Below are positions 10,907-56,728 of a DNA stretch of 64,000 nucleotides, piece after piece. Below the pieces are notes generated by a model. That model made no database searches. It was not told the DNA's origin and worked only from the letters and a program-made list of their open reading frames with translations. The stretch lies in NCBI RefSeq assembly GCF_020520425.1, contig NC_079488.1:87277285-87341284 (forward strand). The letters run 5' to 3'. The position numbers and the translations under genes were made by a program. Position 1 is the first letter of the stretch. Each line of letters opens with the position of its first letter. Source of the DNA: Spinacia oleracea. Taxonomy: Eukaryota; Streptophyta; Magnoliopsida; Caryophyllales; Amaranthaceae.

Positions 10907-10909
10907 ATT

Positions 10910-21540: not shown

Positions 21541-21548
21541 TATTTATA
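21541..21548 (-). promoter_or_regulatory. TATA box for the antisense gene
   Basis: On the minus strand the sequence reads TCTATAAATACTCG, about 250 bp before the ATG at 21292, with pyrimidine-rich leader sequence after it. It lies outside the 3' LTR, so the antisense gene seems to have its own promoter. Confidence 0.6.
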
Positions 21549-21754
21549 GACCTTGGCACGAAAAACCGCCCAACTTCCGCTTTATCTTGGACCGTACGAT
21601 GGACACCGCATCTGAAGCATCCTTTGGACACCTGTCCCACTAGCGCACGGATTCAAACGCCCCTTTTTGAAAAAAAGAGGGGGAAATCTTTCGACTTCTG
21701 GAACTTGGAAACCCGTCCATTTATTCCTAAATGGACCAGGTCTGGGGAGCATGT

Positions 21755-28327: not shown

Positions 28328-28784
28328 ATGAATGTGACCAAGAGAAAGGGTAAGACATGTGGATGTGGTTTTCCTGTAGTTCAAAGAACTTCATGGACCC
28401 ATGAGAATCCTGGACGAAAATTCTTGGGCTGCAAGTTCTATGATTTCGCGACTGGGAAGGCTTGTTGTGATGCGTTCGATTGGGTGGATGAAGAAATTTT
28501 GGAATGGCAGAAGGATGTGACTAATGTACTCATTGCTGAGAAACAACGATTGATTGGTGAAGTGAAAGCCCTCGAGGCAAGGATTGATTGTATTCAACGT
28601 GATAATAACCGGGTGCACGAGGAGCATGGGAAGATGAAGGTTAAGTACGTATGAGAAGATGAAGAAGATGAAAGAAGGTGGTGTGAAGGAAGGGATTAGG
28701 AATGATCATTTGTTAGTTATGATATGTGTTTGTGCTATCGTTTCAATTATCGTTAGTGCAATGTACGTTAAGGTTGTTGGTTAA
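28328..28784 (+). pseudogene. zf-GRF protein with coiled coil and C-terminal membrane segment, frameshifted
   Basis: The ATG at 28328 follows an acceptor (TATACAG); a 5' UTR exon probably ends at CCAG before the GTAAAC near 28223. The first 108 residues hold a GRF zinc finger (CGCGFPVVQRTSWTHENPGR then C...CCDAFDWVD) and a coiled coil (LIGEVKALEARIDCIQ). The frame closes at TGA 28652. A second frame to 28784 encodes a basic linker and a hydrophobic segment (LLVMICVCAIVSIIVSAMYV), the usual tail of small plant GRF proteins. The shift is caused by four extra bases, TA having become TACGTA at 28646-28651. GRF fingers bind single-stranded nucleic acid in other proteins. Being inside a MULE, it is element cargo; its role is unknown. 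Confidence 0.75.
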
Positions 28785-29039
28785 GCAATGCTTAAGAATG
28801 TTGTGGTCACTAGTTGATTTAGTTTGTTGGTTAAGATTAAGATGCTTGAAGTGCGTAGTTGTAAAAGTTTAATGAAAACTTTATGTAAGCGTTTGTGTTT
28901 TGATGAATAAATTCTAGAAATATTATCGTAAAGTATGTTTTTAATCCTAATTCTTAGAAAAAAAATAAAACTAGGAAAATACAAAGGATGAATGGTCTTG
29001 GGCAAGCATTTACCAAAAAAACGAGAGCAACAAAATAAA

Positions 29040-29330
29040 AAACCGATGACAACACAAAAAACCGAGGACAACATAAAATATCGAGAACAACATAAAATAC
29101 TGAGAACAACATAAAAACCCGAGGACAACATAAAATATCGAGAACAACATAAAATACCGAGAACAACATAAAAACCCGAGGACAACATAAAAAACCGAGA
29201 ACTTAATTAAAAACCGAGAACTTAATAAAAACCGAGGACTTAATAAAAAACCGAGAACTTAATTAAAAAACCGAGAACTTAATAAAATACCGAGAACTTA
29301 AAAAAAACCCGAGAACTTGAATTATAGATG
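29040..29330. repeat. About 20-bp minisatellite in MULE-1
   Basis: Units such as CCGAGGACAACATAAAA and CCGAGAACTTAATAAAA repeat about 14-15 times with a period near 20 bp. The first half uses the ACAACAT form, the second the CTTAAT form. It lies between the 3' ends of the two converging MULE-1 genes. Confidence 0.85.
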
Positions 29331-29464
29331 GAGTAACCAAAGTTGAATTTTACAAAGTCACCACAAAATAACTTAAAAAGTTGATTGTTTTAAACTAACC
29401 AAAAGTACACAAAATAAGGCAAATGTTGACTTTTACTACATAACTAAAGTTGACTTTTACAAAC

Positions 29465-32400
29465 TTAGATGTTGTTTTGAGAGATGCAACTCTTTTGGGA
29501 AGGTTGTGAGCCTTGTATGGCATTCACAGAGGCTGTTTTCTTCTTTTTAGGGACATATGCACTCTTTCCTTTGTTTTGGGAGGTGGTAGCTGTTGTGGCC
29601 TTCTTCTTGCCTACAACATGCTTCTGCTTCATTGGCCTTGGTTGTGGCCTAGGTACTGCATTTGTGGGTTGGGGGCTAGGTGCTGCAGGCTGTGATGGAT
29701 GTTGCTGTGCAGGCTGTGCTGGCAGTGGCTGTGCTGGCAGTGGCCTTGTTCTTGGCCTCCCCCTCTGTTTTGAACAACACCATCAGCCATGGGGGGGTCT
29801 GATACAGCTCTTTTGGTAGTGGCCCAATCCACCACACCTCTTGCACATGTTTTGCCTCTTAGGTCTCTTCACCCAACTGCTTCCCTTCCCCTTCTTTCCT
29901 TCCCCTGGATCCTTTCTTCTCTTCCTCTTTGATGGCCTACCAGGCATAATCTTATAAGATGGGGGGAGAGGTTGTGGATATGGTGTTACTTCCCATTGAT
30001 TTTGTCCAGGCATTGCATTGAATTTGGGTGCATAAGTTCTGGCATAAGTTGCAACATGATAGGCTTGATGAACATAATCTTCATAATCAAGTCTCCTTTG
30101 GGCTAAACAAGCCAAGGCATGCCAACAAGGGATCCCCATCAATGTCCACCTGTAGCAACCACATAATTTGTTCTCCAGATTCACCACAAAACAGTCTCCA
30201 CCATGTTGAACCTCAAAAACATGCAAATCTGCTTGTATCAGCCTCATGTTGTATATTTCCTTCTGCCCCCTTTCTATCATTTTCACAACTGAAGGCATGA
30301 TTGTACCCTCAAAGTTTTGCAAGCCTTGTCTCTTTGCACAGCATCTCATCATCACATATCTCCTGATCCATTCCATCAGAGACAAGATAGGTTTTGTCCT
30401 TGCATCCTTCAACACATTGTTGAAGCTTTCACAACAATTATTCAACAGCATTCCTGACTTGGCCCTAGGACTAAAACCATGCCTAGACCAATTACTAACA
30501 GGAATTGCAGTGAGGTACGTAATTGAAAGCATCAACACTAAGCTTCTTAATCTCAGCCATGTTTGCTTGGAATTCATGTTGTACATTAAAAAACAAAAAA
30601 AATCCAGAAACTAAGACCAATAGATGACTCACTAAATCTCAACAAAAAAATGGATGTGAAGGTATTAGTTTACCTTGGTTGATGACCTTGCTGCCTTCCA
30701 AAAGAACTCCTTGTAAACCTCCCCTGGGAATTTAAGTATGAAGTTGGCCCATATATGCCTACAACAGAACCTTGTTTCAGCATTTTGGATGACTGTTCTG
30801 AAGGCATCAAGCAACCCCTACATTGTCACAGAGATGCATTAGACATATCTTTAGTTAAGTTGACTTTCACATTATCATAGTGACCTAAGTTGACTTTTAC
30901 AAAGAACCATTGATACAAGTGTGAGTGAAGCAAGTGTGAGTGAAGCAAGTGTTAGACTTTTACAAAAAAATGGATTAGTTGAGACATAAATAGTGAGTGA
31001 AGCAAGCAAAGTGTAGTGAAGCAAGTGTGACTGAAGCAAAGTTGACTTTCACATAGTGACCAAAGTTGACTTTCACATAGTGACCAAAGTTGACTTTCAC
31101 ATAATCCCAAAACCAAAGTTGACTTTCACATAATCCCAAACCAAAGTTGACATAGTGAGTGAAGCAAGTGTTAGACTCGGGTACGTGTCCAAGTGTTAGA
31201 CTCGGGTACGTATCCAAGTGTTAGACTCGGGTACGTATCCAAGTGTTAGACTCGGGTACGTGTCCAAGTGTTAGACTCGGGTACGTGTCCAAGTTTTATA
31301 CCATTATAAGTCCAGCTAATAATAATAAGAAATAACTTCATCTAATAATAATAAGAAACAACTTGCTTCACAACTGAAAACAATAAGAAACAACACAACC
31401 AGGCATCAAGTCAACAAATTTAAGAACAAAAACAACCACATACCTTCTGCCTGTCAGATATGAAGGCCACAGTATCATCTGCTCCTTCCACAGCTTCATC
31501 TCCTTTCTCATGCACCCAAGTAACTGCATCTGCTACAGAACCAAGATCCTTAACCAGCAGCTCCAAAAACCAGATCCAAGTTTTTGAGTTCTCTGTCTCA
31601 ACCACAACCCAAGCAACTGGGAAAATGTTGTTGTTCCCATATTTCCCAACAACAGTCAGTAATATCCCTGGGTATGGACCTCTAAGGTGACACCCATCCA
31701 CACCCAAAATTGGCCTACAACCATCCCTGTACCCTTCTTCGCAAGGTTGTAAGCAAATGTACATCCTTTGGAACAGGGGAGAGGGGTTATCAAAGCTCTC
31801 AAGCTTGACCACAGCTGTGCTACCTGGAAAGTATGTTCTAATTGCCTCAACATAATCCCAAACCCTCTTGTACTCATCTGCTGCACTACCATTAATCATG
31901 TTCCTAGCTAATCCCCTTGCATTGTAACATTTATAGTATCCCACATCTGACTTCACCTCCCTCCTGACTCTCTTGATAAAGTACTCCATGCTCATTGAAG
32001 GTTCATCCCTAAAATCTTCCAAATATCTCTCTGCTAAATACTCAGCAGTCACCTTATCATTGTCATGTTGATGACCACATATATGCTTTAGGTTTAAGCT
32101 TTTGATTTGTATGTCTCCTCACCCTTCAATTTCCTACAATGAACCTTAAAGGGGAACTTCTTCTTCTGCTTGCAAGTACATTTCACTATCCTACCAGCTT
32201 TCCTAGGGCATCCACACTTCTTTTTACAGTAAACACTCACTCTGTGGCTCTTGTTATGCAAAAGATAATAATTTCCACCAGCATATATCTGATGGTGCCT
32301 CAAAGCCTTCCTAAAAACCTTATTTGAAGGAAATTTTAGCCCAACAGTTAGGTTAATCTTGTGCTTAAAAATCTACATCTGGGTTAAAAAGTGGGTATTT

Positions 32401-32934
32401 CCCCCCTCATCATCAGATCCAGCTGGACTATTTAGTTCCTCATCAGTGTCATTCAGATCCTCATCACTGTCTAAGTGATATTCCTCATTATCACCTTCCC
32501 CTACAACTGGATCTTGCACCACTACCTGCTCCACTGGCACCTCTCCCTCAATTGGCTGTCTGTTTTCAACCCCACCAACTAACCCACTAGACAAAACCTC
32601 CCTCACTTCTGTGTCAACAAACTCAGCAAACAAGTCATCATCACTCTCATCCTCATAGTCTCCCTCACTCAAATACACAGACTCATCAGTGCTAGACCCA
32701 ATGTCATACCCAAAATCTAGGTCAGACCCAAAACCACCTGGTTCATCAGTTTCTGGGATTGCATCAAGCCCTAGATTAGCCCTACTAGGAACAAATTTCC
32801 TTTTGCTTTGATTTGCCTTAGAAGGTGCAGATGTTTTTTTTAGTTTCTGGGATTGTTTGTGAGGTGGGAACTGAATCTGCAGGGGTTTGAGTTGTCTGTG
32901 GGATAGTTTCTGGTGTGGGAATAGGGTTGGTTGG
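29465..32934 (-). pseudogene. MuDR-type MULE transposase, multiply broken
   Basis: Read on minus from 32934, where the N-terminus is cut by the LTR insertion. An acidic N-terminal region is followed by a MuDR DNA-binding-like Cys/His block (about 32100-32300), and a transposase core to 31444 with the first catalytic D in GVDGCHLRGPYPG. After an intron (31443-30818), the exon 30817-30674 carries RFCCRHIWANF. The last part (about 30586-29465) has NNCCESFN, a SWIM zinc finger (CGCYRWTLMGIPCWHA) and a zinc knuckle CKRCGGLGHYQKSC. Lesions: an A8 run frameshift near 32840, TAG at 32373, a frameshift near 32110, a 4-bp TACGTA insertion at 30516-30521 and an in-frame TGA at 29783. It cannot encode a working transposase. 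Confidence 0.85.
31166..31290. repeat. 25-bp x 5 minisatellite in the MULE-1 transposase intron
   Basis: Five near-perfect head-to-tail copies of a 25-bp unit (AAGTGTTAGACTCGGGTACG plus TGTCC or TATCC). Upstream (30840-31160) are looser repeats of AAAGTTGACTTTCACATAGT and GTGAGTGAAGCAAGT. All lie within the transposase intron. Confidence 0.9.
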
Positions 32935-33639
32935 TGAAGGAAATAATGCCCTTGGTCCAAGTATGCATTCTATGTTAAGTCTAATAAATGCGGTTCAGTA
33001 TTAATTAACAAGTTAATAATTCAGTGAGATCAAGTGAGCTGAATGCCTAGCTAGAGGCCGCTTCAGTTCAAGTGGAATTAATGATATTAATCCACAGCTC
33101 ACTCTTGACTGAACCCGTAGGGTCACACAAATAGTACGTAAACGGATCAAGTATTTAATGTCATTAAATACTCCATCTATGGATATTCGGAATCGACGGA
33201 TCTTGGTTTCAGTGGGAGCTGAGATCGTCACAGGCAAGAAATGAATACTCCGGAAACGATGATATTGCCGAAAACGGAAATATGGATCGTATCGGAAATA
33301 TAAATATTATCCAAGTCGTAGATGTTGCCGGAAACGGAAACATGGTACGTATCGGAAAATATTATCGGAAATGGAAATATTGCCGGAATCGGAAATATTG
33401 CCGGAAACGGAAATATTGTCAGAATCGGAAATATTATCGGAATCGGAAAATAATTCCGGAAACGGAAATATTAAATATTTGTTCGAAACGGAAATTAATT
33501 CCGGAATCGGAAATATTAAATATTGTTCGTATCGGAAATGAATTCCGGAACCGGGAATTTAATCGGAAGCGTATCGTACGAATAAGCATCGGACGAGGCC
33601 AGCCGGACGAGGGCCCAGCACGAAGCCAGGCCATCGCCC
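32935..33639 (+). repeat. Copia LTR 5' part, truncated
   Basis: Starts exactly at the LTR terminus TGAAGGAAATAATGCCC and matches the LTR at 55375-56728 (opposite strand) until CCAGGCCATCGCCC. There it is cut and LINE sequence begins. From about 33245 to 33560 it consists of diverged units such as CGGAAACGGAAATATTGCCG. It is about 44 bp longer than the matching part of the other LTR, in keeping with variable repeat number. Confidence 0.85.
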
Positions 33640-40479: not shown

Positions 40480-42380
40480 TCAACGCACCATGTGAGAAGA
40501 AGGGTAATGGTTGTTATTCACGTAGTCAAAGTAATTGTATGCAGGGGGACCCACGCCAAAAACCTGACCTTGACCTTGGCTTGATAAAGATGACCCATCT
40601 GAAGTTTGAGCCTCCTCATCTTCTTCTTGTTCTCCATCAATTTGGCATTCCAAATTTACCCCAAATAATCTCACGCTTTTTGAATTCCCACCCCCTGATT
40701 TTCTTCCCTTTTGCCTAACTTCTGTCCCTACAAAATCAACCCATCATTTAATTAATCAAGCAATTAAATATTTAACTAATGCCTTTAACTAACTGTTATG
40801 AACGTTTAAGCAGAAATTATATGGAGTATTATTTAATTAATGTTATCCCACGTGCCTGTTTCATTATACGTCACCATCTAACTGATCGAGTTAGCACGTA
40901 ATGATTAAGCTACGGAGTACTGTAATAATTCAGGAATATTAGGGTTAATCACACATTGAGTGATAAAATTTGGGTTCAAAGTGACTTTTCAGATAACTAC
41001 TCCTCGTAACTAATTTATCATATCAGATATTATTTGACAGACTTGAAAGATAAAAGTCAGAGTTATAGTTGTACTCCTAGAGAGTACAAGGAGGAAATGG
41101 TTATTTCCAGTTTATGATGCTTGTCTCGGCCTATCCTTGTCCCGGGACCGTTGATGAACATATAGTTCAAAAACACGAGAGCTCCACGTAGCGGAGGACT
41201 AGAAAACAATGTACTACGGAGTATGTAGGAATGAGGCACATTCCTCCTAAGTAATTGGAGGGTGTCAGTCACGCACTCCCATAAGCGTCACCGTACATTT
41301 ACTCATTTTAACAATTTTGGATTTACACGAATTTTACGGGGAAGTTAAAAAAAAAAGGGCTCGAAATCTTGATTTTAGTTTCTTGGGGAAGTTTAAAAAA
41401 AGGGATGAAATCTTGATTTCATTTTCTTTAAAAAAAGAACAAACTTAACAAAAAATAAGGGAACAGATAAACAAAAGAAGTCCAAACACTGGTTCATCTG
41501 AGTTGACGATTGCGAAACGATACAGTTCATGTTTTCTTTTATTTTTATTTTCACCTCTTAAAAAAATAAAAATCAAACGAAGCTACACTCAATTTTTTAT
41601 TTTGAGGGGTTTACCTGTATGAAGACCGTCAGGTCGGTAAGACGGAAAAGAAGCAATCTGGTGTTGCTGAGGTGCACCATTGTAGCTCTGCGACTGCACA
41701 ACGCCGTAATTCTGACCATTATTATTATTATTATTATTATTATTATACCGAACCGGGTTACTCTGAGACAGCGGTGCAGAACCGCGACGGCGCCAACCAA
41801 TAAAAAATCGGTCAGACTCAAGCCGATGCCGTTGAAATAAAACGACGTCGCCGGCGTCAAGTTTCTTCTCTTTAACGTAACGACTCCAACCTTTGGTTAA
41901 CACGTAGCTTTGACTACTATTCCAGTAAGAGTACCTAAACTTCCAGCACTTTCCAGACTCGTCTTCAAACCCTAACAAAACCCCGCCGCCTCCAACTCCG
42001 CCGGTGGATTTATCTCCGACCGAAGAGGTAGATGAATCGACGGTGGAAGAACCGGCGAGAGGGAAGTACTTCTCAGCGTGCTGTTTGGGGATAACAAGAC
42101 GGTTTAATTTGCCGACGTCGCTTGGAGTCAAGGGTTTTTCAAACATGTATTCTTGGTCAGCAGAAGAAGGAGACGACGACGTGGTTTCCGATCGGTCAAT
42201 GGCATTGGTGGCGGCGATGTTGTTAGTGGAACTGTTGTCGGAATCAACGTCATCATGTTTGGAAGAGAGAGAAAGGGAAGAATGATAGAAGAAGGGTAAG
42301 GATTTAGGATGGTGTTCCATTGTAGTAGGGGTATACCAGAGTGTATCGGAAGAAGGGAGGTTTAAGGAGAAATGGTTCAT
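40480..42380 (-). CDS. B3-domain transcription factor, NGATHA-like (SOD7/DPA4/ABS2 type), 2 exons
   Basis: Exon 1 is 42380-41615 and exon 2 is 40727-40480, joined GT-AG in phase 1, giving 337 residues. A Ser/Asn-rich N-terminus precedes a B3 DNA-binding domain at about 78-199: [63 protein letters not shown] loop of about 24 Ser/Thr/Gly residues (about 110-133) is inserted within the B3 domain. An Asn run (about 217-225) comes from an ATT/AAT microsatellite. Exon 2 has the repression motif RLFGV (about 275-279) in the context [10 protein letters not shown], which favours the NGATHA-like group over NGATHA proper. Such proteins repress growth genes in nuclei of seeds, leaves and petals; that role is by family. 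A MULE lies about 0.5 kb upstream. Confidence 0.88.
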
Positions 42381-42486
42381 TAGGGATGGGAAATTGAGAG
42401 AAGAGAGAAAAGGGGGGAAATGTAAGGGAGTAGTTGGAATTGGGGGATTATGATGGGAATGAGTATTTTTGTGGGTTGAGGAAGGA

Positions 42487-42495
42487 GAATATATG
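42487..42495 (-). promoter_or_regulatory. Candidate TATA box of the B3 gene
   Basis: CATATATTC on the minus strand, about 110 bp before the ATG, followed by pyrimidine-rich CTCTCTTTCTCTCTC-type sequence typical of plant 5' leaders. Confidence 0.4.
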
Positions 42496-42723
42496 AAGGG
42501 GCGGGGGAGAGAGAAAGAGATGGTTCAGATGGACAGATGGTGATATTTAGCCAGAGGAAACAAAGGGGTAAAAAAAAATATTTCTCATGAAAATTCAGAG
42601 ACCCAATTTAAGGTTTTTTACGTGATCAACTCAAATCTTTACCCATTAGTCATTAGTATTACTGGTAGTGGTACTCTACAAAAATTAGATATTTTCTTTT
42701 GAGGGGAAAATATAATGGTTGTA

Positions 42724-42850: not shown

Positions 42851-43379
42851 AATATAATATATATACAATTCCGCTTGCATGGACCCGGTCCACCATTAAG
42901 GTTACCATGGACCAGGGTAATTAGGTAATTTGCAGCGCTGAACCGTTTGAAATCACGTGTTCCAAAATAACAGAATGCGCGAAACCCTAAAATTGAAATC
43001 TCTCTCCTCCAGCAGCAACTTCTCTCTCCTACAGCAGCTTCTCTCTCCTCCAACAGCTTCTCTCTCTTCGAGTTTCAACAATGGAGGACGATTTAATCGA
43101 TTTGAATATCGATTTAAATCGCGCAATAGAAGAAAAATTGTATAATTATGATGGTAATATTCGAATCCTAATAACTAACTACGAAGAAAATTATAGTAAC
43201 GTTCATACTCATTGAGTAATTATTATTATTTTAGAAAACTTAGAGAATCATAGAGAAGTATATGATGTTGAAGATGAAGATGAAGGCACATCTCAGCAAG
43301 TTATGGTTGCAAATCAATGTATTGAAGAAGGTATGATATAGTATCTTTTAATATATATATAGTAACTGTTATATTGATA

Positions 43380-44530
43380 TAGTTAACATATTATAATTGC
43401 AGTAGTGTAACTAACATAGAAAGAAGAATTATATTTAACGCAGAGTAACTATAACATACAAAGAGAAACTATGTTTAATGTAGAGTAAATATCTCATATA
43501 GACAGGACTTATAGTAACTGTAGAGTAACTATAAACTATAGAGACTAACTATATAAAATGAAGAGTAACTATCACATATAAAGAAGAACTATATACTGTA
43601 GAGTAACTATCACATATAAACAGGAGTTATATTAACTGTGAGTAACTATAATATATAAACAGTAACTATATAAAATAAAGAGTAACTATCACATATAATG
43701 ATAACTATATTTAAAATAAAGTAACTATAATTCATGAATGGTAACTATATTAATTATAGAGTAACTTCACATAACGAAATAATATAAATAAGAAATAACT
43801 ACATTTAATTTATAGTAACTATAACATATAAAGAATAACTATATTAACTGTAGAGTAACTATAACAATCAATTGATCCTAAGTAAGTATGTTAAATATAG
43901 AGTAACTATAACATGTAAAGAGTAACTATATGAACTGTAGAGTAACTATAACAATCAATAGATCTTAAGTAACAATGTTAAATATAGAGTAACTATAACA
44001 TATAAAAAGTAACTATATTAAATGAAGAGTAACTATCACATATAAAGAAGAACTATATACTGTAGAGTAACTATCACATATAAAAAGGAGTTATATTAAC
44101 TGTGAGTAACTATAATATATAAACAGTAACTGTATAAAATGAAGAGTAACTATCACATATAATGATAACTATATTTATAATAAAGTAACTATAATTTATG
44201 AAAGGTAACTATATTAATTATAGAGTAACTTCACATAACGAAATAATCTATATAAGCAATAAACTACATTTAACTTATAGTAACTATAACATATAAAGAA
44301 TAACTATATTAACTGTAGAGTAACTATAACAATCAATAGATCCTAAGTAAGTATGTTAAATATAGAGTAACTATAACAAATAAAGAGTAACTATATGAAC
44401 TGTAGAGTAACTATAACAATCAATAGATCTTAAGTAACTATGTTAATTATATAGTAACTATAACATACAAAGAGTAACTATATAAATATTAAGAGTAACT
44501 ATCACATTTAATGATAACTATATTTGTATT
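43380..44530 (+). repeat. 20-bp AGTAACTAT repeat array, transposase intron 2
   Basis: Nearly the whole 1.2-kb intron is a diverged array of units like AGAGTAACTATAACATATAA with period about 20-22 bp. A larger-scale duplication is visible: the order of variants around 43540-43990 recurs at about 44020-44430. Confidence 0.9.
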
Positions 44531-45589
44531 TGTACAGGTTCAATAATACATTCAATTGATACAAACCACAACATCTTTGAAAATCCAAATAATGAGCAGG
44601 AAGAAAACATTGATAAAGAATTAGATGGCAGTTTAATTGGAGAAGCAAGGAAAACAACCGATGAGATTTATGATCTATATTGCAAACATGCTGCTATTAT
44701 TGGTTTTAGTGTACGAAAAGGGAAGAATAGATATAAAGAAGGAACCACAATTGTTAATGGAAAATACTTCTACTGCTCTGCTGCTGGAATAAGAGACCCT
44801 CCTAAAAACAAAAAACTCAAAAATGAAGATGATCAATCAGATGCAAAAAAGAAAGAAAGGAGAAAGAGGGTTATGATAACAAGAACAAAATGTGAAGCTC
44901 AAATATTTGCAAAGAAGAATGAAAATGGAGATTTTGAAATAGAAAAGCATGTAGTGGTACATAATCACCCATTGACAAGAGAAATAAGTAATTATCTCCA
45001 CCGATCGGAACGACAAATGACAGAACCTAAAAAAGAAGCTATTGAGGCAATGTCAGAATGTGGTCTAAGACCAATGGAGTCTTATAGGTATATGTCAACA
45101 GAAACTGGCGGAGACGACTGTGTAGGTCATACGATGATTGATCATCTAAACTACTGCTACAAGTTAAAAATGAAGCAAATTGATGGCAAGGATTCACAAA
45201 CACTAGTGAACAAACTGTATGACATACAATCAATAGATCCCGAGTTTTTTTTTCAGAGTAAGACTCAATGCTGAAGGAAAAGTTGAGTGCCTATTTTGGA
45301 GGGATTCTATGATGAGAGAAGATTACAAAATATATGGAGATGTTCTAGTTTTTTATACTACATTCAGAACCAATAAGTACAATCTCATATGTGCACCATT
45401 TGTTGGTATCAATAACCATTGGAAAAACACAATGTTTGCTTGTGCTTTCATTGGGGATGAAACCACATAATCTTTCGTTTGGGTGTTTGAAACTTTTCTG
45501 AAGGCTATGGGAGGAAAGCACCCTATATCAATCTTCACTGATCAAGATGCAGCTATTGCTGCTGGAATAGAACATGTACCTCTTCATAT

Positions 45590-45945
45590 ATTATACTTAC
45601 TATTTTGACAATATAGTAACTCTTTATAAAATATAGTTACTATTTTAACAATATAGTAACTCTTTATAAAATATAGTTACTATTTTGACAATATAGTATC
45701 TCTTTATAAAATATAGTTACTATTTTGACAATATAGTAACTCTTAATTCAATATAGTTACTATTCTGAAATTATAGTAACACTTTATAAAGTATAGTTAC
45801 TATTTTGACAATATAGTAACTATTTATAAAATATAGTTACTATTTTGAAAATATAAAAACTCTTATTAAAATATAGTTAATATTTTGACAATATAGTAAT
45901 TCTTTATAAAGTATAGTAACTCTTTATAAAATATAGTTACTATCT
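45590..45945. repeat. Alternating-orientation AGTAACTAT/ATAGTTACT array, transposase intron 3
   Basis: A 40-bp dimer made of AATATAGTTACTATTTTGAC followed by AATATAGTAACTCTTTATAA, repeated about eight times. The two halves carry the motif in opposite orientation, unlike the single orientation in other arrays. Confidence 0.88.
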
Positions 45946-47404
45946 TGTGGAACTATATATATTCATTATTGTTTTTCAGGTTTTTCCTTCTTCAAGACAC
46001 AGTTTATGCTTGTGGCACTTGAGTAAAAATGCAAACAGTAGGTTTGGTTTATTGAAGTCTGATAAAAACTTCAAAAACAAATTCTACAAGTGTTTAAGTG
46101 GGTGTATAACACCAAATGATTTTGAAGAAACTTGGAAATCTATGATCAACACTTTTAAGCCGGAAAAAGATGACTGGTTCAACAGATTGTATGGTCTTAA
46201 AGAAAAATGGTGTACAGCTTTAAGTAAAGATTTTTTTTCTGCCGGTATACTTTCTTCACAAAGAAGTGAAAGTACAAACCATGCTGTTGGTTTTAAAGCA
46301 AATAAAAGTACAACATTAACAGAGTTCTATAGTATTTTTCAAGCTACAATAAATCGATGGAGAAAAACCGAAGAAAAAGACGACTTTGACTGTACAAGGG
46401 GAATACCAACTTCAGAGCTAAGTATGAGTGCTATATTAAAACAGGCAGCAAATGTATACACAATAACACTTTTCCGTGATTTTGAAGAAGAGTTCAAGCT
46501 TTCTGTGGCAAGTAGTACAATGTTCAAGGGAAGTGTAGGAAGAACAGTATTTTTTGAAGTGTGGATAGAAGGAATAACAGGTAAAAAAACCATAAATCTT
46601 TATTTAATATTTAGAGTAGATGTTCTTTTGAATAATATTACATTATATGTAAATAATCTAACAGGACCAAGGCAAGAAGTTCAATACAAAATGGAAGATT
46701 CAACCGTCACTTGCACATGCAAAAACTTTGAAGAATCTGGATGGTTGTGCTTCCATTGTTTAAGAATATTGCATTTACATTCAATCAATACAATTCCAGA
46801 TCGTTACATAACAACAAGATGGATTAGATATGCAAAGAAACAGATATGGGAAAGGGTTGATACAATAAAAAGGGAGAAAGGTGAAATCAACAATTTTACT
46901 GGTTGGAGATTACATATGATCAGAAGGTAATTTTTTCAATATACATTAGTTCATTTTCATATAGTTACAATTACAGTTGATATTTTACTTAACACTTAAA
47001 CTCTATACCACAGATACTATAACTTAATTTTGAAAGGGCATAAGATAGCAAAGGCCAGAAAATTTATCGAGGAGAAGTTTAAAATGGATAATAAAGCAGT
47101 TGATGAAATCATAAAAAAGGAAGAAGAAAGAAAGGCAAAAGAAGAAGCTGCAAAGATAGCAGAACAAGAAAAGGCAAAAGCTGAAGCACAACGAGAAACA
47201 CAAGACGGGGAATCAACTAATTCTGAAATAACAATTGTGCTTGATCCTGATCGTGCTAATACTAAAGGAAAGAGTAAGAAGAGAATAAAGGGTCAATATG
47301 ACAATTACAAGCAGCCATCAAAGAAAGGAAAAAAGAAACACAAAGAATTTGGATCCAAGACACCCAATATTCAATTATTTACACCTAAAGAACAACTATT
47401 TTAG

Positions 47405-48351
47405 TGATGTTCTTGTTTTATTATCATATACAGTTACTTCAACATTTTTAAACAAATTTATTGAGTGTTTATACTATAGTTCTCCTTTACAATACATAGT
47501 TACTATACATTCAGTATAGTAACTCTCTATAAACACACAATTTTTATTTATAGTAACTCGTTATAATATAGTTACTATTTTGACAATATAGTATCTCTTA
47601 ATACAATATAGTTACTATTCTGAAAATATAGTAACTCTTTATAAAATATAGTTACTATTTTGACAATATAGTAACTCTTAATAAAATATAGTTACTATTC
47701 TGATAATATAGTAACTCTTTATAAAATATACTTACTTTTTTTACAATATAGTAACTTTTTATAAAATATAGTTACTATTTAAAAAATATAGTAACTCTTA
47801 GAACAATATAGTTACTATTCTAAAAAAATATAGTAACGTTTTTTATGCAATCAAAATGACTTATAGTAACTATATGTTACTCAAATAATAAAATACCATA
47901 AAAAAGAGAGTAATTGTATCTTATTAAAGATAACTTTATCTGTAAGATAGTAACTATTTGAATTTATACACAAAATTATTCACTTTTTATATATACCAAC
48001 TCTTCACATTTAGTGGTCACCCTTCTTTTCAAATAGTAACTCTATATAAAATATAGTTACTATTTTGATAATATAGTAACTTTCGTTATGCAATCATATG
48101 ACTTACAAATTTATAAGAGTAACTATATTTGAAGAAAGGTAACTATTTCATTCAAATAGAAACTATATTTAAAATAAGTAAATTGAACAATATTACACAA
48201 ATACTGCAAAAGTTATAATTACTCTCATATATCAAACAATTAAAAACCATTGAGAGTAACTATATCAAACTTAGAATTAATTGTACATTCTAAGTAGTAA
48301 TTCGACTACATACAAACACAAAAAATTAAATTGTTTTTTCAGCAATAATTA
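47405..48351. repeat. AGTAACTAT arrays in the spacer between the two MULE-2 genes
   Basis: The region between the converging stop codons. It contains the same 20/40-bp units in both orientations (about 47480-48240). No gene was seen. It must contain both 3' ends and polyadenylation sites. Confidence 0.85.
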
Positions 48352-51300
48352 TTAACCACGTGAAGCACCTCGTCCACGTGCCTTCCCGCGTCTGCCTCCT
48401 CGGGTGCGTCTCCCGCCTTTGCCACGTCCTTTCCCTTCAACATTGACATCTGTCTCAGCTTCATCTTCTGTTTCAACATGTTTGGATTTCCTTGCTGAAC
48501 TATTTCTTGCAACAATTTCAATTTTTGAAGCATCATTCATGTATTTCTGCGTCAACTCTTCCCTTTGTTTAATTAGGGCATCCAAAACATCTTGTTTCCT
48601 GTATTTCCTGAATGCAACCATTCGTTTCAGATATTCATCTCTGTAACAATTCAAATCTGACAACACAATGGTGCCACAAATACAAGCCCTGAGAAACTTC
48701 CTGAAATCTTTCTGCAAATATTTGAGCAGTAACTATTAGAATAAAAACAGTAACTATGATAACAAAACAATAACTATAAAGAATGAAAAGAAAAATATGA
48801 ATAACATTAATTATTTTTAACACAAAAACTTACATCTGCCAAGGGATCAAAGTCAAAAATCCCAACACCATCTTGTACCGTTTCAACACCATGAAAAACC
48901 ATCATAAACATCATCAAATAGACACAACAGTCTTTGTCATAAGCACCTCGCTTCCAATTACCACCGACCGGGATAAATTTGAAGCTTTTAATATCTTCAT
49001 GATGAATGTTATCCATATTTTTCAGTAGTTTTTCCAATGAAGAACACTGTACAAAACATATAGTAAGTATTATCAACATATAGTAACCTTTGAAATCATA
49101 TAGTAACTATTACCAACATATAGTAAGAATTAAAATCATAGAGTAACTATTAAAAGGAAAATTTGGTAATATTAATCCAACCTTTTGCCGGTTTTCTTTT
49201 ATTAATCCCACCTACGACATATTTTTTAATAATCTCACCTTTACTACCCAACGACTTTTATTGGGCTTAAGTGACCGATAAACTTGTGAAAAATCATCGA
49301 GATGGTGATGAATTGATTATGATGACGGAATATATCGAGAGAGAGTATTTCCACGTAGGGACATATTACCGCCTATAATAGGTTTATGACGTGTTGGGCC
49401 CAATAAAAATCGTTGGGTGGTAAAGGTGGGATTATTAAAAAATATGTCGTAGGTGGGCTTAATAAAATAAAATCGGCCAAAGGTTGGATTAATATTACCA
49501 AATTTTCCCTATTAAAATCATATAGTAACTATTACCAGTTGGTTAAAAATCATATAGTAACTATTAAAATCATATAGTAACCATTAAAATCATATAGTAA
49601 CTATTAAAATCATATAGTAACTATTAGAATCATATAGGAACCATTAAAATCATATAGTAACCATTACCAACATATAGTAACCTTTGGAATCATATAGTAA
49701 CTATTTTATAAAGATAGTAACTATTTTAAAAACATAGTTACTGTTTTAAACAAATAGTAACCTTGTCAAAAATATAGTTCCTCTAAAAAAGAAAGACTAA
49801 TATAAAGGTAACTATAACATTTATAGAGTAACTACAACAACAAAAAAGGTAACTATAAAAAAACTTACCAAGACAGAATAAGCTTTCTTCCTTTGTTCCA
49901 TCTCTTTTGGTTCCAGAAGCATATTATCAAAGAAATAGACACTTTTGTCTTTCATACTAATGACAAACAGGTAATAATGCTTCGGGTCTTCAATCAGAAC
50001 AGGAGCAAAAATCTATATAAAAAAAGAAAAACAACAGATTACAACTACAAGAAAGGAGACAAAAAAAAAAAGATAATATGGTTATATAAAGAAAATATAA
50101 ATCATACCATATTACAATCTTTCAACGATTGAACTCCATTTACATCTTTCACACCATAATTAAGACAAACACACAATTCAGACAAGATTTTTTCATTGCC
50201 TGGTTTCTCAATCAAATCAGCAACATATTTCTGCAAATCAATATTAAAAGAAAAATTAAACAAAGGCCAAAAAAATTTAAAATAATTAACATTTTATATT
50301 ATTAAAAATATAACTTACACAATATGTGCCACCTAAAAACAGCTTCTGAGGAGAACCGGCAGGATTCCTTTCATTTTCATTCAATAAAAAAGCCCAAGCT
50401 TCAATATGAATCAAAAGAATATCAAATGTGGAAGGAAGGGTCCACATGTCATCTCTTCCTACCGCAATAAAATGATTGTATTCTATAACTTTATCACTGA
50501 AAAACATAAAAAAGAAACAATAAATATGTCAGAAGAATTATAAAGGTTACTATAATAAATAAAAGGTAACAATAGAATATAAAAGGTAAATATAGTAAAC
50601 AAAAGGATACTATAGTATACAAATAGTAACTATATTATATGAAAGGTTACTATAAAGTTAGGGCAACAACTTCACTTTTAAGAAAGGTAACTATATTATA
50701 TGAAAGGTAACTATATTATATGAAGGGTTACTATAAATAATGAAAAGTAACTATATTATATGAAAGGTAACTACATTATATGAAAGGTAACTATATTATA
50801 TGAAAGGTAAATATAATATATGAAAGGTAACTATAATATATGAAAGGTATCTATTTTATATGAAAGGTAACTATATTATTTGAAAGGTAACTATAAATTA
50901 TTAAATGAGAAAACTTCTACTTACTCAGTCAAAATACCCTCTCCATCAGTCAGAGCAGCAAAGTCCACAACTTCTTGAACAAATGCTGGAAGATGCCTCA
51001 TTAAATCTTCAAATGCTATCATAAACGGAGACATAAACATCACATTTTCCTCTATGCCATAGACACTGACATTCACTCTTGATACAGCATGGTTGTTAAT
51101 GATGCATTTTTGAAATGCAACCCACACGCGCTCATATTCTTCTATTTCTTCATCATCATCCTCCGTAATTTCTTTAGCTTTGCTTTTCAAAGAATCAAGA
51201 ACTGCATTTATTTGAGTGTCAGGATCAACTTCTCGAATAATTGCTTCGGTAGATGTTGTTGCATCAACAACAGCAGCTGTAACAACTGCAGGCTCAGTTG

Positions 51301-54300
51301 GAACAACGACAGAAGGTTGAGGGGCAGCAGTAACAACTGGATTGTTACTTGAACCAAAAATGTCATCCCAACCATTTGGTAGATTCTTCACCAATTGATG
51401 AATCTCCACCAACTCATCAACCATCTTTTGATAAGTGGAATTTTCCAAAATATCATCGCCATGGTTCTGCGAAGGCATTGAAGCCTTTAATTTGAACAGC
51501 TCTTCAGCATGGATGGCTGAAACTACATCCAGATCTCTCTTCATCAACAACCACTGACCATGAAAATCCTAATAACAAAATACATAAATTTAAATATGGA
51601 ACATAATATGAAAATTTAACTAAAAATACAAAAAATATTATAAGAAAAGGTATCTATAGTATATAAAGATAACTGTATAAAAGTTAACTATAGTATATGA
51701 AAAGTAACTATAGAATATAAAAGATAACTATAGAAAATAAAAGATAACTATAGTAAATAAAAGGTAACTATAGTATATAAAAGATATCTATAGTATACAC
51801 AAGATAACTATAGTACATAAAACATATAGTAACTATTTATACCATATAGTAACTGTTTAAAACATATAGTTACTATTTATCAAAACAAAGTAATGGTAAC
51901 TTAGTGTATGAAAGATAACTATAGTACATAAAAGATAACTATAGAATATAAAAGATAACTATATATACCTACATTTACTAAACCAAAGATAATGATAACA
52001 ATAGTGTATAAAAGATAACTATAGCATATAAAAAATAACTATACTATATATTGACAAATATATCAATAATAAAGTAAACTTACATCAGTGGCTTTAGAGA
52101 AAATTTCTTCATCTGTAGGATGAGAATTAGGGATTTCAAACTGAAGAATCCTAGGACGCCGACTTGGAAGTCGACGCCCAACATAGGGCTGTTCAGCTCT
52201 TCCCCCACTGCTGCCAGCTTCATTTTCTTTCGAAATAGATTTGATTTGGGTCAAATCTATTTGACCATCAACAAAAACAAACTTTTTGGAAATTGGATAC
52301 TTCTCCTTCTCCAATATACCAGAACCATATAATGCACTCATATTGGCATTTTCAGCATGAATCCGATCGGTTACCATCTTCGATGTCCAATGCTGAATAA
52401 GAGGTAATTGATCAGGAATACCACTGGAATTCCTAAACTTAATCCTCTGAAAATACACAAGTTGCAAAAACACAACACAGCCTCCAAATGTCTTTTGATC
52501 TTTGCCTTTCAATAAACAATTTTTAAATTTCACTGTTTCCTCACATAATACGTCAAGAACGTATTTACACCAATTGTATTTGGGAATCATTTTAGGATCT
52601 TCCAAAGCCTTAGCCAATCTCAAATCTACAGTCCTATTGGCTGTTGGAGTAAAAAATGTAGAGAAAGCAACAAAAACAAATAATTGTTTAAACAGATCAC
52701 CACCATCTGTCAACAATTTAATCTTGTCCTCGAGCAACCTTATAGGAATTTGAGCATTGACCTCTTCAAAACCGAACTCTTTTCTCCAGTTGATCTTCAA
52801 ATCAAAATCAGGATTAGTGGAATTGCGCCCACGTTTAACCCCTTCAACCTCCAACTCAGAAAGGGGGAGCATAAACAAATCGTACACATCATAATCAGTG
52901 ATTTCAAATTGCTTGGAATCACTGATTGTAAACAGAGAACTCACACCATCAAAGCACTTGATGCACCAGTACATCATTTGAGTGTTTTTTCGACTTAATT
53001 GAAGGCCTAACAATCCTCCAAACCCTATCTCTTGAACAGCTGCCTTTTGATCAGGAGAGAAGTCTTTAATTAATTTACACAATGATCCTCCTGAACATTG
53101 TGTATCAAAATTAAACCTGAAAAAAATGAATAATGAAAGTAAGTCAGCTTTATATATCATATAGTAACTATTTAGAACACATAGTAACTGTTTAAAACAT
53201 GTAGTAACTATTAGAAACATATAGTAACTATTTAGAAAATATAGTAACTATTTAAAACATATAGTAACCTTTCAAATAATATAGTAACTATACTACACAT
53301 AGTACACATAGAACCTATTTATAACATATAGTAACTATTTAGAAGATATAGTAACTGTTTAAAACATAAAGTAACTATTTAGAACATATAGTAACCTTTG
53401 ATATAGTCACTATTGTAAACATAGTACACATAGAACCTATTTAGAACATATAGTAACTGTTTAAAACATATAGTAACCTTTGGAATCATATAGTAACTAT
53501 TGTAAACATAGTACACATAGAACCTATTTAGAACATATTTAAAAACATATAGTAACTATTTAAAACATATAGTAACCTTTGGAATCATATAGTAACTATT
53601 TAAAACATGTAGTAACCTTAGGAATCATATAGTAACTGTTTACAACATATAGTAACTGTTTACAACATATAGTAACTATTTAAAAAAATATAGTAACTAT
53701 TTAGAACATAGTAACTATTTTGAACATATAGTAACTATTTAGAACAATTAACTAAATTAAACTAACACTTAAACGATAGGCAGGCCATCAGCGCCAACTT
53801 CTTTAAAACTTGTGAATGAAGTTGATGAGATTCAGGCTGTGGAACGTCAACCAGAGAAGAATTTTGTAAAACTAGTTGATTAGGTTGTTCTTCTTCAATT
53901 GGTTCTTTTTCAGGTACAAGCTCAATTGCTTTTGATTTCGGATTGCCAGCCTTTTTGTACTTCTTTATAGACACAGATTCCTTAGCAACTGAAACAAAAC
54001 AATTATAAAACAAAATATTACTATATAGTAACCATTACAATCACATAGTAACCAATAAAATCATATAGTAACCTTTCAAATAATATAATAAATACATAAA
54101 CATAAAGTATCCATTTAAATCAGATAGTAACTATTTATTAGACATAGTAACTGTTTAATTTTATAATAACATTTAAGAAAGATAGTAACTATTTATAACA
54201 CATAGTTACTGTTTTAAAGTTATATTTACTTTCTAAAAACGATAGTAACTATTTATAACACATAGTTCCTATTTTAAAGTTTATTTACTTTCTAAAAACA

Positions 54301-55067
54301 CAGTAACTATTTATAACACATATTTACTGTTTTAAAGTTATATTTACTTTCTAAAAAAGATAGTAACTAATTATAACACATAGTTACTATTTTAAAGTTA
54401 ATTTACTTTCTAAAAAGACAGTAACTATTTTAAAAACATAGTTACTGTTTTAGAAATATAGTAACCTTTTAAAAATATAATTACTCTGAAAAACTACGAA
54501 CAAACCAGTCACTAATAAAAACACTTAAAAACTTCGTAACATAAAATAAAAAGTAACTATATCTTTGAAACAGTAACTTCAAACAAAAACCACAAACATT
54601 TCAATAATTCAAAATCAAACAAAAATAAGTTCGAATTACTAGAAATTTCTTCAGAAACAGCAAATAAAAGGTAACTATATCTTTGAAACAGTAACTGCAT
54701 GAAACACTAAACCTAATTTCAGCAAAAACCACAAACATTTCAATAATTCAAAATCAAACAAAAAATAAGTTCGAATTAACAGGAATTTCTTCAGAAACAA
54801 CAAATAAAAGGTAACTATATCTTTGAAACAGTAACTGCATGAAACACTAAACCTAATTTCAGGAAAAACCACAAACATTTCAATACTTCAAAATCAAACA
54901 AAAAATAAGTTCGAATTACCAGGAATTTCTTCAGAAACAGCATTTGGCCTTCTTCCTCGCCTTCGAGGAGCTTCAACAGCCATTTCAGCGACGGAATTGT
55001 CGAATTCAAGTTTCTTCGCTGCCGGTTTCTTCGCTGCCGGATTCTTCGGTGCCGCTTTCTTCACCAT
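48352..55067 (-). CDS. Ulp1-type (C48) cysteine protease of MULE-2, 9 exons, apparently intact
   Basis: Minus-strand exons: 55067-54920, 53988-53769, 53116-52084, 51568-50925, 50496-50319, 50230-50108, 50012-49869, 49046-48834 and 48711-48352. All eight introns are GT-AG, all phases agree, and the sum is 3063 bp, or 1020 residues plus stop. N-terminus: basic AAKKPAAKK repeats and RRRGRR (nuclear-signal-like). Residues about 123-460 resemble the conserved N-terminal region of plant transposon Ulp1 proteins (IGFGGLLGLQL, ITDYDVYDLFMLPL). A Pro/Thr-rich linker follows. The protease part is in exons 5-8: His794 (PKHYYLFVI), Asp811 (FFDN) and Cys870 (DKDCCVY), with family-like spacing. The C-terminal tail is RGKGGRRTRGGRRGKARGRG. 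Ulp1 enzymes cleave SUMO-type conjugates; the substrate here is unknown. Six of eight introns contain the 20-bp repeat. Confidence 0.85.
48720..49146. repeat. AGTAACTAT repeats, protease introns 7-8 (part)
   Basis: Three copies lie in the short intron 48712-48833. Several ATATAGTAACTATTAAAATC-like units at 49050-49146 lead up to the MITE at 49156. The exon 49046-48834 lies between and is free of the motif. Confidence 0.8.
49156..49508. mobile_element. Mutator-type MITE in a protease intron, 9-bp TSD CTATTAAAA
   Basis: Long terminal inverted repeats start GGAAAATTTGGTAATATTAA. The duplication CTATTAAAA is present at 49147-49155 and 49509-49517 and is itself part of the 20-bp repeat unit. The element is 353 bp and non-coding. 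It sits in the 49047-49868 intron, so it does not break the coding sequence. Confidence 0.88.
49518..49860. repeat. AGTAACTAT array, protease intron 7 (rest)
   Basis: Units such as AAAATCATATAGTAACTATT with period 20, becoming AAAAACATAGTTACTGTTTT near 49730. Confidence 0.88.
50497..50924. repeat. AGTAACTAT-type array, protease intron 4
   Basis: Homogenised units ATATGAAAGGTAACTATATT, period 20, especially 50690-50900. The high similarity between units suggests recent expansion or gene conversion in this intron. Confidence 0.9.
51640..52060. repeat. AGTAACTAT-type array, protease intron 3
   Basis: Units like AAAAGATAACTATAGTATAT, period 20, a different local variant (GATAACTATAG) from neighbouring introns. 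Confidence 0.88.
53150..53760. repeat. AGTAACTAT array, protease intron 2
   Basis: Units ACATATAGTAACTATTTAGA and ACATATAGTAACTGTTTAAA, with a superimposed longer unit (ATAGTACACATAGAACCTAT) recurring three times. Confidence 0.9.
54020..54500. repeat. AGTAACTAT array, protease intron 1
   Basis: Units such as ACATAGTAACTATTTATAAC with a higher-order block of about 55-60 bp (AAAGTTATATTTACTTTCTA) repeated four times. Confidence 0.85.
54545..54955 (-). repeat. 118-140-bp tandem triplication containing the exon 1 splice donor
   Basis: Three tandem copies, each with GGTAACTATATCTTTGAAAC, CACAAACATTTCAATA and TTCTTCAGAAACA. The last copy holds the end of exon 1 (CCTG before GTAATTCG on minus). 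In the middle copy the donor GT reads TT; in the farthest copy it reads CTA before GTAATTCG. The exon end and donor have thus been copied into the intron. Confidence 0.8.
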
Positions 55068-55374
55068 TTTTTAGAAAAAAGAAGATCGGAAGAGTAATTT
55101 GATGCAAATGGATGAAAATAATCACTGAAATTAAATTTGAAATGGAGAGAGAAATTCAGAGAGAAGTTCGAAAGCAGTTTAGAGAGAGAAGTTGAGTGAG
55201 AAGTTCAAAAGCCGGGAAAAAGGAAATTAAAAAAAAACATATATATAATTAGGAAAGCACGTGGAAGTTACACGCAACTTCTCGCACGCAACAACGCAAA
55301 GACTATAATACCCTAGTCCATAGCATGGACCAGGTTTACTATAGTGTAAATGATATATATATATATATATATAT

Positions 55375-56728
55375 TGTTAGGTTATGATACATATGACAAT
55401 TCATAAATCATGCGGAAAAACCATAAAGCCAGGAAAACATATTATTTACACATAATCATTTAGCATAGTTTAGATGCATACTCTTTGTTGCGTGCCTTCC
55501 CTAGCTGCGCCCGAACCGAACAAGAACAAGTCTTTAGGACTCCAAGTGTCGTCCCTCCGTAGATAGTCCACAGCACGTCCGGATCCGCCTTAAGATTGAC
55601 CAACTAGAATCGCCCTTAAGGTACTATTAATTTCGGCACTTTATAGGCAATTGTGTAATTGAATTTTGCTCTCAAAAACTCACTTTGAATACTTGAATTC
55701 TCGATGTAAATATGTGACCCTAGGCACCTATTTATAGAGTTATGGAAAAGGATTTGGAATCCTATTAGGATACTAATTTATTTAATTATAATCCTACTAG
55801 GACTCTAATTAAATAAACTAAATCTTTTAGGATTAGATTTAATCATATGACAAATCCCGGTAGCTTTAGGATTCGAGTAGCACACAAACACACACGCACG
55901 CACGCACAGCAGCCCACGAGGGGCGCTATGCGCGCGCGCGCAGCCCGCGAGCTCGCAGCCCACTGCCGCAAGCCCACACGCTGCCGCAGCCTTGGCGCGC
56001 GCTGGGCCTGCCTTGCGGTGGGCCTGGCGCAGCCTTGGCTGGTGCGTTTGTGGCGCGCTGGCTTGCTGGGCGATGGCCTGGCTTCGTGCTGGGCCTTCGT
56101 CCGGCAGGCCTCGTCCGATGCTTATTCGTACGATACGCTTCCGATTAAATTCCCGGTTCCGGAATTCATTTCCGATACGAACAATATTTAATATTTCCGA
56201 TTCCGGAATTAATTTTCCGATTCCGATAATATTTCCAATTCTGACAATATTTCCGTTTCCGGCAATATTTCCGATTCCGGCAATATTTCCATTTCCGATA
56301 ATATTTTCCGATACGTACCATGTTTCCGTTTCCGGCAACATCTACGACTTGGATAATATTTATATTTCCGATACGATCCATATTTCCGTTTCCGGCAATA
56401 TCATCGTTTCCGGAGTATTCATTTCTTGCCTGTGACGATCTCAGCTCCCACTGAAACCAAGATCCGTCGATTCCGAATATCCATAGATGGAGTATTTAAT
56501 GCCATTAAATACTTGATCCGTTTACGTACTATTTGTGTGACCCTACGGGTTCAGTCAAGAGTAAGCTGTGGATTAATATCATTAATTCCACTTGAACTGA
56601 AGCGGCCTCTAGCTAGGCATTCAGCTCACTTGATCTCACTGAATTATTAACTTGTTAATTAATACTGAACCGCATTTATTAGACTTAACATTGAATGCAT
56701 ACTTGGACCAAGGGCATTATTTCCTTCA
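55375..56728 (-). repeat. 3' LTR of the minus-strand copia element (1354 bp)
   Basis: On minus it begins TGAAGGAAATAATGCCC, right after the polypurine tract AAGTGGGAGAC, and ends CCTAACA at 55375. It includes a block of diverged GGAAACGGAAATATTGCC units (about 56160-56420) and a GC-rich block (about 55886-56100). The same LTR, truncated, occurs on plus at 32935-33639. Confidence 0.85.

Follow-up and report, generated by a model that had tools for sequence, protein, structure and literature searches.

The window analysed here is a stretch of 64,000 nucleotides from spinach (Spinacia oleracea; NCBI RefSeq assembly GCF_020520425.1, contig NC_079488.1, positions 87,277,285 to 87,341,284 of the forward strand). 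It contains a Mutator-like element (MULE) of 12,487 bp with two convergent genes, a transposase gene on the forward strand and, on the reverse strand, a gene for a protein with an Ulp1 domain (hereafter the ULP gene). Tandem arrays of a short unit occupy much of the noncoding DNA of this element (Table 1). Tandem Repeats Finder (TRF) recovers units of approximately 20 bp, or their 40-bp dimers, at every location named in a preliminary description of this DNA, and six of the eight ULP introns (1, 2, 3, 4, 7 and 8), the two long transposase introns and the intergenic spacer indeed carry the repeated word. The element contains the 8-bp word GTAACTAT 103 times, none of them in an exon, and no other 8-mer occurs two or more times in each of the ten noncoding arrays. 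Array introns and spacer together measure 5,679 bp once a nested miniature inverted-repeat transposable element (MITE) is set aside, and in them the exact 9-bp word AGTAACTAT is found 88 times. It is absent from the exons (5,599 bp) and from the part of the window lying outside the element (51,513 bp). The confinement to noncoding DNA that had been described by eye is thus borne out by counting. With up to one mismatch the counts are 154 noncoding, 3 exonic and 17 outside the element, and with up to two they are 227, 20 and 196, which places the exons at background level; the earlier estimate of about 200 copies agrees with the most relaxed count but not with the exact one. The heptamer GTAACTA occurs 107 times in introns and spacer vs. 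approximately 4.9 times in dinucleotide shuffles of the same regions. Since shuffled exons would give only about 0.3 occurrences, the contrast between exons and introns is one of noncoding excess.

The modal spacing of the words (up to one mismatch) is 20 bp, seen in 64 of 144 intervals, followed by 40 bp (20) and 18 bp (12). With its flanks the core reads ATAGTWACTAT, a near-palindrome with 47 occurrences in the element, and the form of the word in ULP intron 3 (A7) is GATAACTAT. When sites are anchored on GTAAC and arrays are weighted equally (nine arrays, each with three or more usable sites; A4 was dropped), conservation across arrays peaks at A-x-A-GTAAC-T-A-T, and the linkers come close to background. 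Across arrays, 0.76–1.06 bits are held by columns A(−3), A(−1), T(+5) and T(+7), against 0.04–0.26 bits for most linker columns. Inside a single array, linker columns hold approximately 0.3–0.9 bits, so that each array has linkers of its own but shares the core with the others. The claim that each intron has its own variant therefore holds for the linkers, with the exception of A2 and A3, which are alike. The 140-bp unit of A9 has a TRF span of 54584–54942, reaching 23 bp into exon 1.

Exact words have a single orientation in A1, A4, A6 and A8, mostly a single one in A5, and mixed orientations in A2, A3, A7 and A9a. The exact 9-mer stands 29 times on the plus strand and never on the minus strand in transposase intron 1, and GTAACTAT has 45 copies in opposite and 5 in the same orientation in the ULP introns. 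Because the word runs mostly one way along convergent genes, and is present in the spacer and in derivatives of the element that lack the intact genes (see below), it would act as DNA rather than as RNA. A role in splicing, one of those guessed at earlier, or another role at the RNA level is disfavoured on the same grounds, whereas the guess of binding by a transposase or host factor keeps some merit and is weighed below.

Table 1. Features of the spinach MULE and its arrays, in positions of the window.
Feature	Position	Strand	Remarks
Whole MULE	42866..55352	.	ends CAATTCCGC... / ...GTGTAAATG
Left 9-bp target site duplication ATATATATA	42857..42865	+	low complexity, weak on its own
Right 9-bp target site duplication ATATATATA	55353..55361	+	sequence identical to left
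MULE transposase gene	43081..47404	+	exons 43081-43330, 44538-45575, 45980-46580, 46665-46926, 47014-47404
ULP/DUF1985-like gene	48352..55067	-	9 exons, GT-AG introns throughout, intact 1018-aa frame
ULP exons 1-9	54920-55067, 53775-53988, 52084-53116, 50925-51568, 50319-50496, 50108-50230, 49869-50012, 48834-49046, 48352-48711	-	
Array A1, transposase intron 1	43331..44537	+	29 exact AGTAACTAT, all +; ~457-bp tandem duplication inside
Array A2, transposase intron 2	45576..45979	-	40-bp dimers, word orientation alternating
Array A3, spacer between convergent genes	47405..48351	.	88.6% like A2 over 290 bp
Array A4, ULP intron 8	48712..48833	+	three units only
Array A5, ULP intron 7	49047..49868	+	split by nested MITE (49156-49508)
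Array A6, ULP intron 4	50497..50924	+	unit AAAGGTAACTATATTATATG
Array A7, ULP intron 3	51569..52083	+	variant unit AAAAGATAACTATAGTATAT
Array A8, ULP intron 2	53117..53774	+	unit CATATAGTAACTATTTAGAA
Array A9, ULP intron 1	53989..54919	+	20-bp + 58/118-bp units, then 2.6 copies of 140-bp unit
Short array-free ULP intron 5	50231..50318	-	88 bp
Short array-free ULP intron 6	50013..50107	-	95 bp

Both gene models were built by hand. The transposase gene has five exons and is broken in this copy, where the frame shifts near 45250, at a poly-T run, and a TAA stands in frame near 45468; a Pfam search assigns it FAR1 (7.6e-15), MULE (2.3e-12) and SWIM (9.1e-5) domains. The product of the ULP gene contains a Peptidase_C48 (Ulp1) domain (5.2e-7, 30.2 bits, above the cut-off of 20.7). 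At the expected Cys, exons 7–8 (48834–50012) read DCC by eye, with no obvious Gln; the same position reads DSG in the related locus L015 and DDA in L009 (by eye). The Ulp1 domain may therefore be degenerate, and it is possible that it is a pseudo-protease that serves as a DNA-binding scaffold. For exon 3, Pfam lists no family other than DUF1985, and this one at a sub-threshold score (0.023, 15.1 bits; 0.066, 13.6 bits for the whole protein; cut-off 35.1), and a reversed control, checked letter by letter, gives no DUF1985. The exon-3 protein of L009 reaches 0.0012 (19.2 bits, likewise below the cut-off), and that of L015 matches the plant mobile domain (PMD) above the cut-off (6.5e-9) and DUF1985 at 0.043, while PMD is not listed for exon 3 of the window at E up to 10. 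Membership of the exon-3 protein in a DUF1985/PMD-like superfamily is thus suggestive rather than settled. No relative of this protein was found among viral contigs, and the sole match of the C48 region among solved structures is an unrelated enzyme (E 0.99). Open reading frames (ORFs) of at least 100 aa within the element include no candidate for a third, VANB-like gene; besides the two genes there are only two such frames, 101 and 104 aa long, on the strand opposite the ULP gene.

The element is longer than first described, its bounds at 42866 and 55352 being taken from ends shared between copies. The right end agrees with copies L024–L028, and the left end with L031 and L035, two of five stretches fetched for this check. 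The terminal 27 bp form a weak inverted repeat, with 17 of 27 positions matching. Two other copies have 9-bp duplications, GATGAAAAG and ATATAGACT, in their flanks (by eye). A larger element of 24 kb, with the inverted pair 32935–33519 / 56145–56728 as its terminal repeats, was considered and rejected, because the pair resembles long terminal repeats (LTRs) by eye, with a TG start and an adjoining purine-rich stretch, and because the right end of independent MULE copies falls at the equivalent of 55352. The pair belongs to two related LTR-like sequences in opposite orientation, 55376–56728 and 32935–33639 (93–98% over the matched parts), which contain GGAAATATT-rich repeats and of which the right one adjoins the right flank of the MULE.

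Relatives were searched for in the assembly of 894,210,420 bp. Exon 3 of the ULP gene has at least 118 matches, from 117 of 1,246 first-look candidates that were scored, and among the matches listed at least 54 copies, including that of the window, cover at least 307 of the 344 residues (89–100%). Twelve close copies (L017–L028; 59–99% identity, picked over an identity range) and eight distant ones (L009–L016; 41–47%) were fetched. Whether related MULEs of the same genome share the word had been raised in the preliminary description: GTAACTAT is present in the introns of all 12 close copies (8–48 sites) and in none of their exons, and none of the eight distant relatives has an array of it (0–1 intron sites each). 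The array-bearing introns are variable in length among copies (intron 4, 292–900 bp; intron 7, 157–822 bp, the longest with the MITE). ULP introns 5 and 6, which were proposed to show the original intron size, do keep it, with gaps of 87–91 and 93–145 bp in the window and in 9 of the 12 close copies, where measurable; two short transposase introns are likewise free of arrays. Orthologous introns of other copies share linkers, most clearly introns 2 and 3 and less so introns 4 and 7 in L017–L021. The intron variants therefore predate the fetched copies and did not arise by recent spread inside this one copy, which refines the earlier idea of a seed that spread and was then homogenised locally. 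The MITE nested in A5 has inverted termini GGAAAATTTGGTAATATTAATCC and a 9-bp duplication CTATTAAAA; its insertion is probably recent, as intron 7 measures 441–461 bp in L025–L028 vs. 822 bp in the window.

In two of the distant relatives, L009 and L010, ATAGTGACC is the commonest 9-mer that passes a composition filter. The pattern ATAGTRAC, picked after the top k-mers of these two loci had been viewed, exceeds all 200 shuffles in six of the eight distant loci (12 sites vs. 0.38 in shuffles for L009 and 14 vs. 0.49 for L010; five each in L011, L013 and L014; three in L012) and does not in L015 and L016. Pairs of sites 21 bp apart are found in L009 (6060/6081 and 3977/3998), L010, L011, L013 and L014, partly by common descent. 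These dispersed and paired sites look like precursors or alternative states of the arrays. L015 contains 22-bp arrays at 4045–4137 and 1563–1705, with words unlike GTAACTAT; one of them lies in the interval from exon 3 to exon 4, the other beyond the last exon.

Across the genome, pairs of GTAACTAT separated by 9–13 nucleotides have 3,639 matches vs. 17 for the reversed pattern. The first 100 of these pairs (C1 up to 28.8 Mb) form 17 clusters and served to ask whether the word is a common satellite, which had been offered as a refutation of a family-specific repeat. Seven clusters (78 pairs) have an exon-3 match or the exact left end within 15 kb, and four further clusters are tied to the family by a family-like terminus. 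In all, 11 clusters with 92 of these 100 pairs can be linked to this MULE family, the remaining six clusters (eight pairs) being outside the comparison. In the part sampled the array thus occurs tied to one MULE family, unlike a simple satellite. Among array clusters that lack an exon-3 match, all six loci that were fetched (L029, L030, L036, L037, L038 and L039) have at least one family-like terminus, the weakest evidence being the short matches in L037 and L039. L037 has ULP exon 1 and 2 matches of only 39–43% together with a right terminus like that of this family, and shares GTAACTAT; it is rather a further subfamily. L029 and L030, each of 3.7 kb and 96.8% identical, have differing target duplications by eye, 33 and 31 sites, no transposase match, and a ULP gene reduced to a 3′-exon remnant. 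From their sequences, they are derivatives that have moved and kept their arrays.

A host DNA-binding factor, such as a GT-element/trihelix- or MYB-like protein, could bind the GTWAC cores, which the element would use as enhancers or boundaries. Sites of host factors can be short and near-palindromic like this core, which is kept in all 12 close copies examined. A host factor alone, however, gives no reason to expect that arrays in the sampled part keep to a single MULE family with its derivatives, or that the word is changed in the distant clade, and we regard this explanation as improbable. Similar doubt applies to the proposal that the arrays are bound by the FAR1-type transposase, or by its DNA-binding domain, and aid transposition or recruit the enzyme. 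A FAR1 DNA-binding domain is present, at least 40 of the 54 close ULP copies have a transposase match no more than 10 kb away, and array-carrying derivatives have moved. Transposases, however, usually bind the outer ends of elements, and GTAACTAT is absent from the outer 215 and 285 bp of this one. In addition, a related transposase (54–61%) is found within 30 kb of five of the eight distant ULP relatives, and these five have no array of GTAACTAT; binding by the transposase seems to us a poor candidate.

The base composition of the arrays suggests another explanation, in which they are length padding or low-methylation DNA whose scarcity of CG and CHG sites lets them escape maintenance methylation whatever binds them. 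CG sites are absent from five arrays (A2, A4, A6, A7 and A8) and occur at 2.5–6.4 per kb in A1, A3 and A9, and at 15.8 per kb in A5 with its MITE; CHG sites number 4–25 per kb in arrays vs. 20–68 in 13 of 14 exons. Nevertheless, the four small array-free introns have no CG sites either, any AT-rich filler would suffice, and a conserved core with free linkers is left unexplained. We consider padding of this kind very improbable.

Exon 3 of the ULP gene is under purifying selection. Against the window copy, the ratio of non-synonymous to synonymous divergence (dN/dS) is 0.15–0.22 for L017, L018 and L021–L024 (dS 0.09–0.48), 0.25 for L020 (dS 0.96) and 0.32 for L019 (dS 0.62). It is 0.26–0.39 for the nearly identical L025–L028, where few changes are counted (0.39 being that of L027). 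Of the eight distant copies only L015 escapes saturation of dS (dN/dS 0.27 at dS 2.1). Retention of noncoding words was followed with 9-mers that are repeated in the window introns and were looked up in the orthologous introns, a restriction that lessens but does not remove a possible bias from core abundance in the target introns. Core words outlast linker words in all five of the more diverged copies (dS 0.34–0.96): 27/32 core vs. 37/102 linker words are retained in L021, 27/44 vs. 68/186 in L017, 16/23 vs. 33/85 in L018, 10/17 vs. 26/68 in L019, and 3/10 vs. 4/31 in L020. In the four closest copies tested, retention of both is 0.92–1.00.

These results bear on another alternative, that the arrays are neutral minisatellites produced by slippage in AT-rich introns, without function, and that exons are clean since insertions there are purged. 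The length variability of the array introns between copies agrees with such an origin, as do tandem duplications at multiple scales and the fact that A2 and A3 seem to be copies of each other. It is the core, however, and not the linkers, that recurs in ten separate noncoding regions and outlives the linkers at dS 0.34–0.96, and the dispersed ATAGTRAC sites above shuffles in six of the eight distant relatives also weigh against it, though that pattern was chosen post hoc. A purely neutral origin is therefore unlikely, if still worth serious consideration.

The view that nothing similar had been described was mistaken. In Arabidopsis, VANC21, a DUF1985 protein of the MULE VANDAL21 (Hiun), binds the motif YAGTATTAY in vitro and in vivo (Hosaka, 2017; PMC5735166). 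There the motif is described as mainly noncoding and often tandem in introns, intergenic, upstream or terminal DNA, in arrays that grow and shrink between copies and share one orientation, with other motifs in related families; DUF1985 and DUF287 are named there as domains of VANC (PMC5735166). Tandem arrays in noncoding DNA, of the motifs AGTTGTCC and AGTTGTAC, are also given there for VANDAL6 and its VANC6 (PMC5735166). A later study adds that RNA-directed DNA methylation targets the same noncoding regions of VANDAL elements (Sasaki, 2023; PMC10398659).

By analogy with VANC, we think it probable, on balance, that the spinach arrays are DNA-level docking sites for a protein of the element itself, most likely the ULP/DUF1985-like protein, which would keep the element and its relatives unsilenced. 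The candidate binder would sit densely along the noncoding DNA, on a site that may be the near-palindrome centred on GTWAC (ATAGTWACTAT in many units), with sites approximately 20 bp, or two helical turns, apart. We infer from the VANDAL parallel that such binding could maintain or bring about hypomethylation of the element and its relatives and permit their transcription. The precursors would have been scattered sites and 21-bp pairs of the sort seen in the distant relatives, from which slippage and unequal exchange would have grown intron-specific arrays in this lineage. The arrays would be tolerated in introns, spacer and derivatives, while protein coding would keep exons free of them, and the derivatives may profit in trans from the anti-silencing activity of the ULP protein.

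A more specific version can be put forward tentatively, with rather less assurance. It would make the word the own operator of a FAR1-type MULE, in which ancestral GTRAC pairs two helical turns apart became phased 20-bp arrays in a lineage that then multiplied. The reader of this operator would be a DUF1985/PMD-like protein joined to an Ulp1 domain, maybe a degenerate protease, and array-rich derivatives without intact genes would exploit it in trans.

Several observations weigh against docking by a VANC-like protein. The DUF1985 scores, including that of L009, stay at 13.6–19.2 bits against a cut-off of 35.1, and DUF287 is not listed for the ULP protein at E up to 1. The VANC motifs YAGTATTAY and AGTTGTMC are each absent (0 and 0) from the element; because VANDAL families differ in motif, this excludes only those two motifs. 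A resemblance of ATAGTAACTAT to YAGTATTAY (five shared letters) was rejected, since 7,372 of 20,000 permutations score equally well or better; as expected, such chance-level similarity fits a motif of its own for each family, and it lends no support either. A genome scan that scored 150 of 893 candidates lists 11 DUF1985 matches (10 above the cut-off) on C1 up to 28.8 Mb, none of them with such an array in a radius of 15 kb, the nearest being 38.6 kb away; DUF1985 as such is thus not associated with the array. Orientation is mixed in A2, A3 and A9a, and with one mismatch also in A8 (14+/6−), and the near-palindrome itself blurs strand. Among 15 pairs within or between other subclades, dN/dS is 0.42–0.89 in 11, 0.24–0.25 in two and without a value in two, so that many copies may be decaying. 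L020 keeps only three of its ten core words, and part of the core excess could come from a greater abundance of core words in the target introns.

Other features of the window lie outside this element. A second MULE at 28328–32800, with MULE and SWIM domains on the reverse strand and a GRF-like zinc-finger ORF by eye on the forward strand, has arrays of its own: a 19-bp unit (core CCGAGAAC, seven exact) at 29016–29316, and, in what looks like a transposase intron (31037–31298), units of 24/25 bp. It also contains ATAGTGACC three times (30877, 31053 and 31077), and is possibly a second motif-array system. An open frame at 41592–42524 encodes a B3 domain (9.2e-25), presumably of NGATHA-like type, and the MULE of Table 1 lies approximately 340 bp upstream of it. 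Direct repeats of 437 bp (97.9%), 11 kb apart at 10470–22189, surround long ORFs and resemble an LTR retrotransposon by eye.

No publication naming this spinach MULE family was found in the literature, where an earlier report may still exist, and among the matches listed for a search with the motif letters there are only bacterial, unrelated papers. The spinach elements would add a large transposon family of another plant genome to the known cases of VANDAL-like motif arrays in introns. Within one genome this family offers an unusually complete series, from distant relatives with dispersed or paired sites through 54 close copies to derivatives that carry arrays but lack the intact genes. This series makes it testable how a transposon protein and a short DNA target co-evolve, and whether the growth of arrays precedes amplification. 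Intron arrays as such are already known; some features are new, namely the FAR1-type transposase, the ULP fusion, the near-palindromic word and the 20-bp phase.

Like VANDAL21, the spinach element is a MULE with tandem short-motif arrays in introns and intergenic DNA and not in exons, with units that evolve together, gain and loss from copy to copy, and a second gene, whose DUF1985 match in spinach is weak and below the cut-off (PMC5735166). Unlike VANDAL21, it has an Ulp1 domain, no listed DUF287, a FAR1-type transposase, no third gene found, and no motif near its termini, and binding and demethylation are predictions for the spinach protein (PMC5735166). It shares with VANDAL6/VANC6 a motif of its own in tandem noncoding arrays, although the VANDAL6 motif itself has no occurrence (0) in the spinach element (PMC5735166). 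A link to the PMD proteins MAIN and MAIL1, whose domains are described as transposon-derived and as acting in silencing (PMC7156037), runs through the exon-3 protein of the relative L015, and not through exon 3 of the window. In having a MULE with an Ulp1 (Peptidase_C48) domain in its second gene, the element resembles KIU/Kaonashi; a review states that such ULP1-carrying MULEs of Arabidopsis act on their own specific noncoding motifs, and names similar MULEs in grapevine, melon and rice (PMC13317346). The spinach element is best read, by analogy, as a system of the same kind as VANDAL/VANC, in a new family with another motif and an ULP-fused protein.

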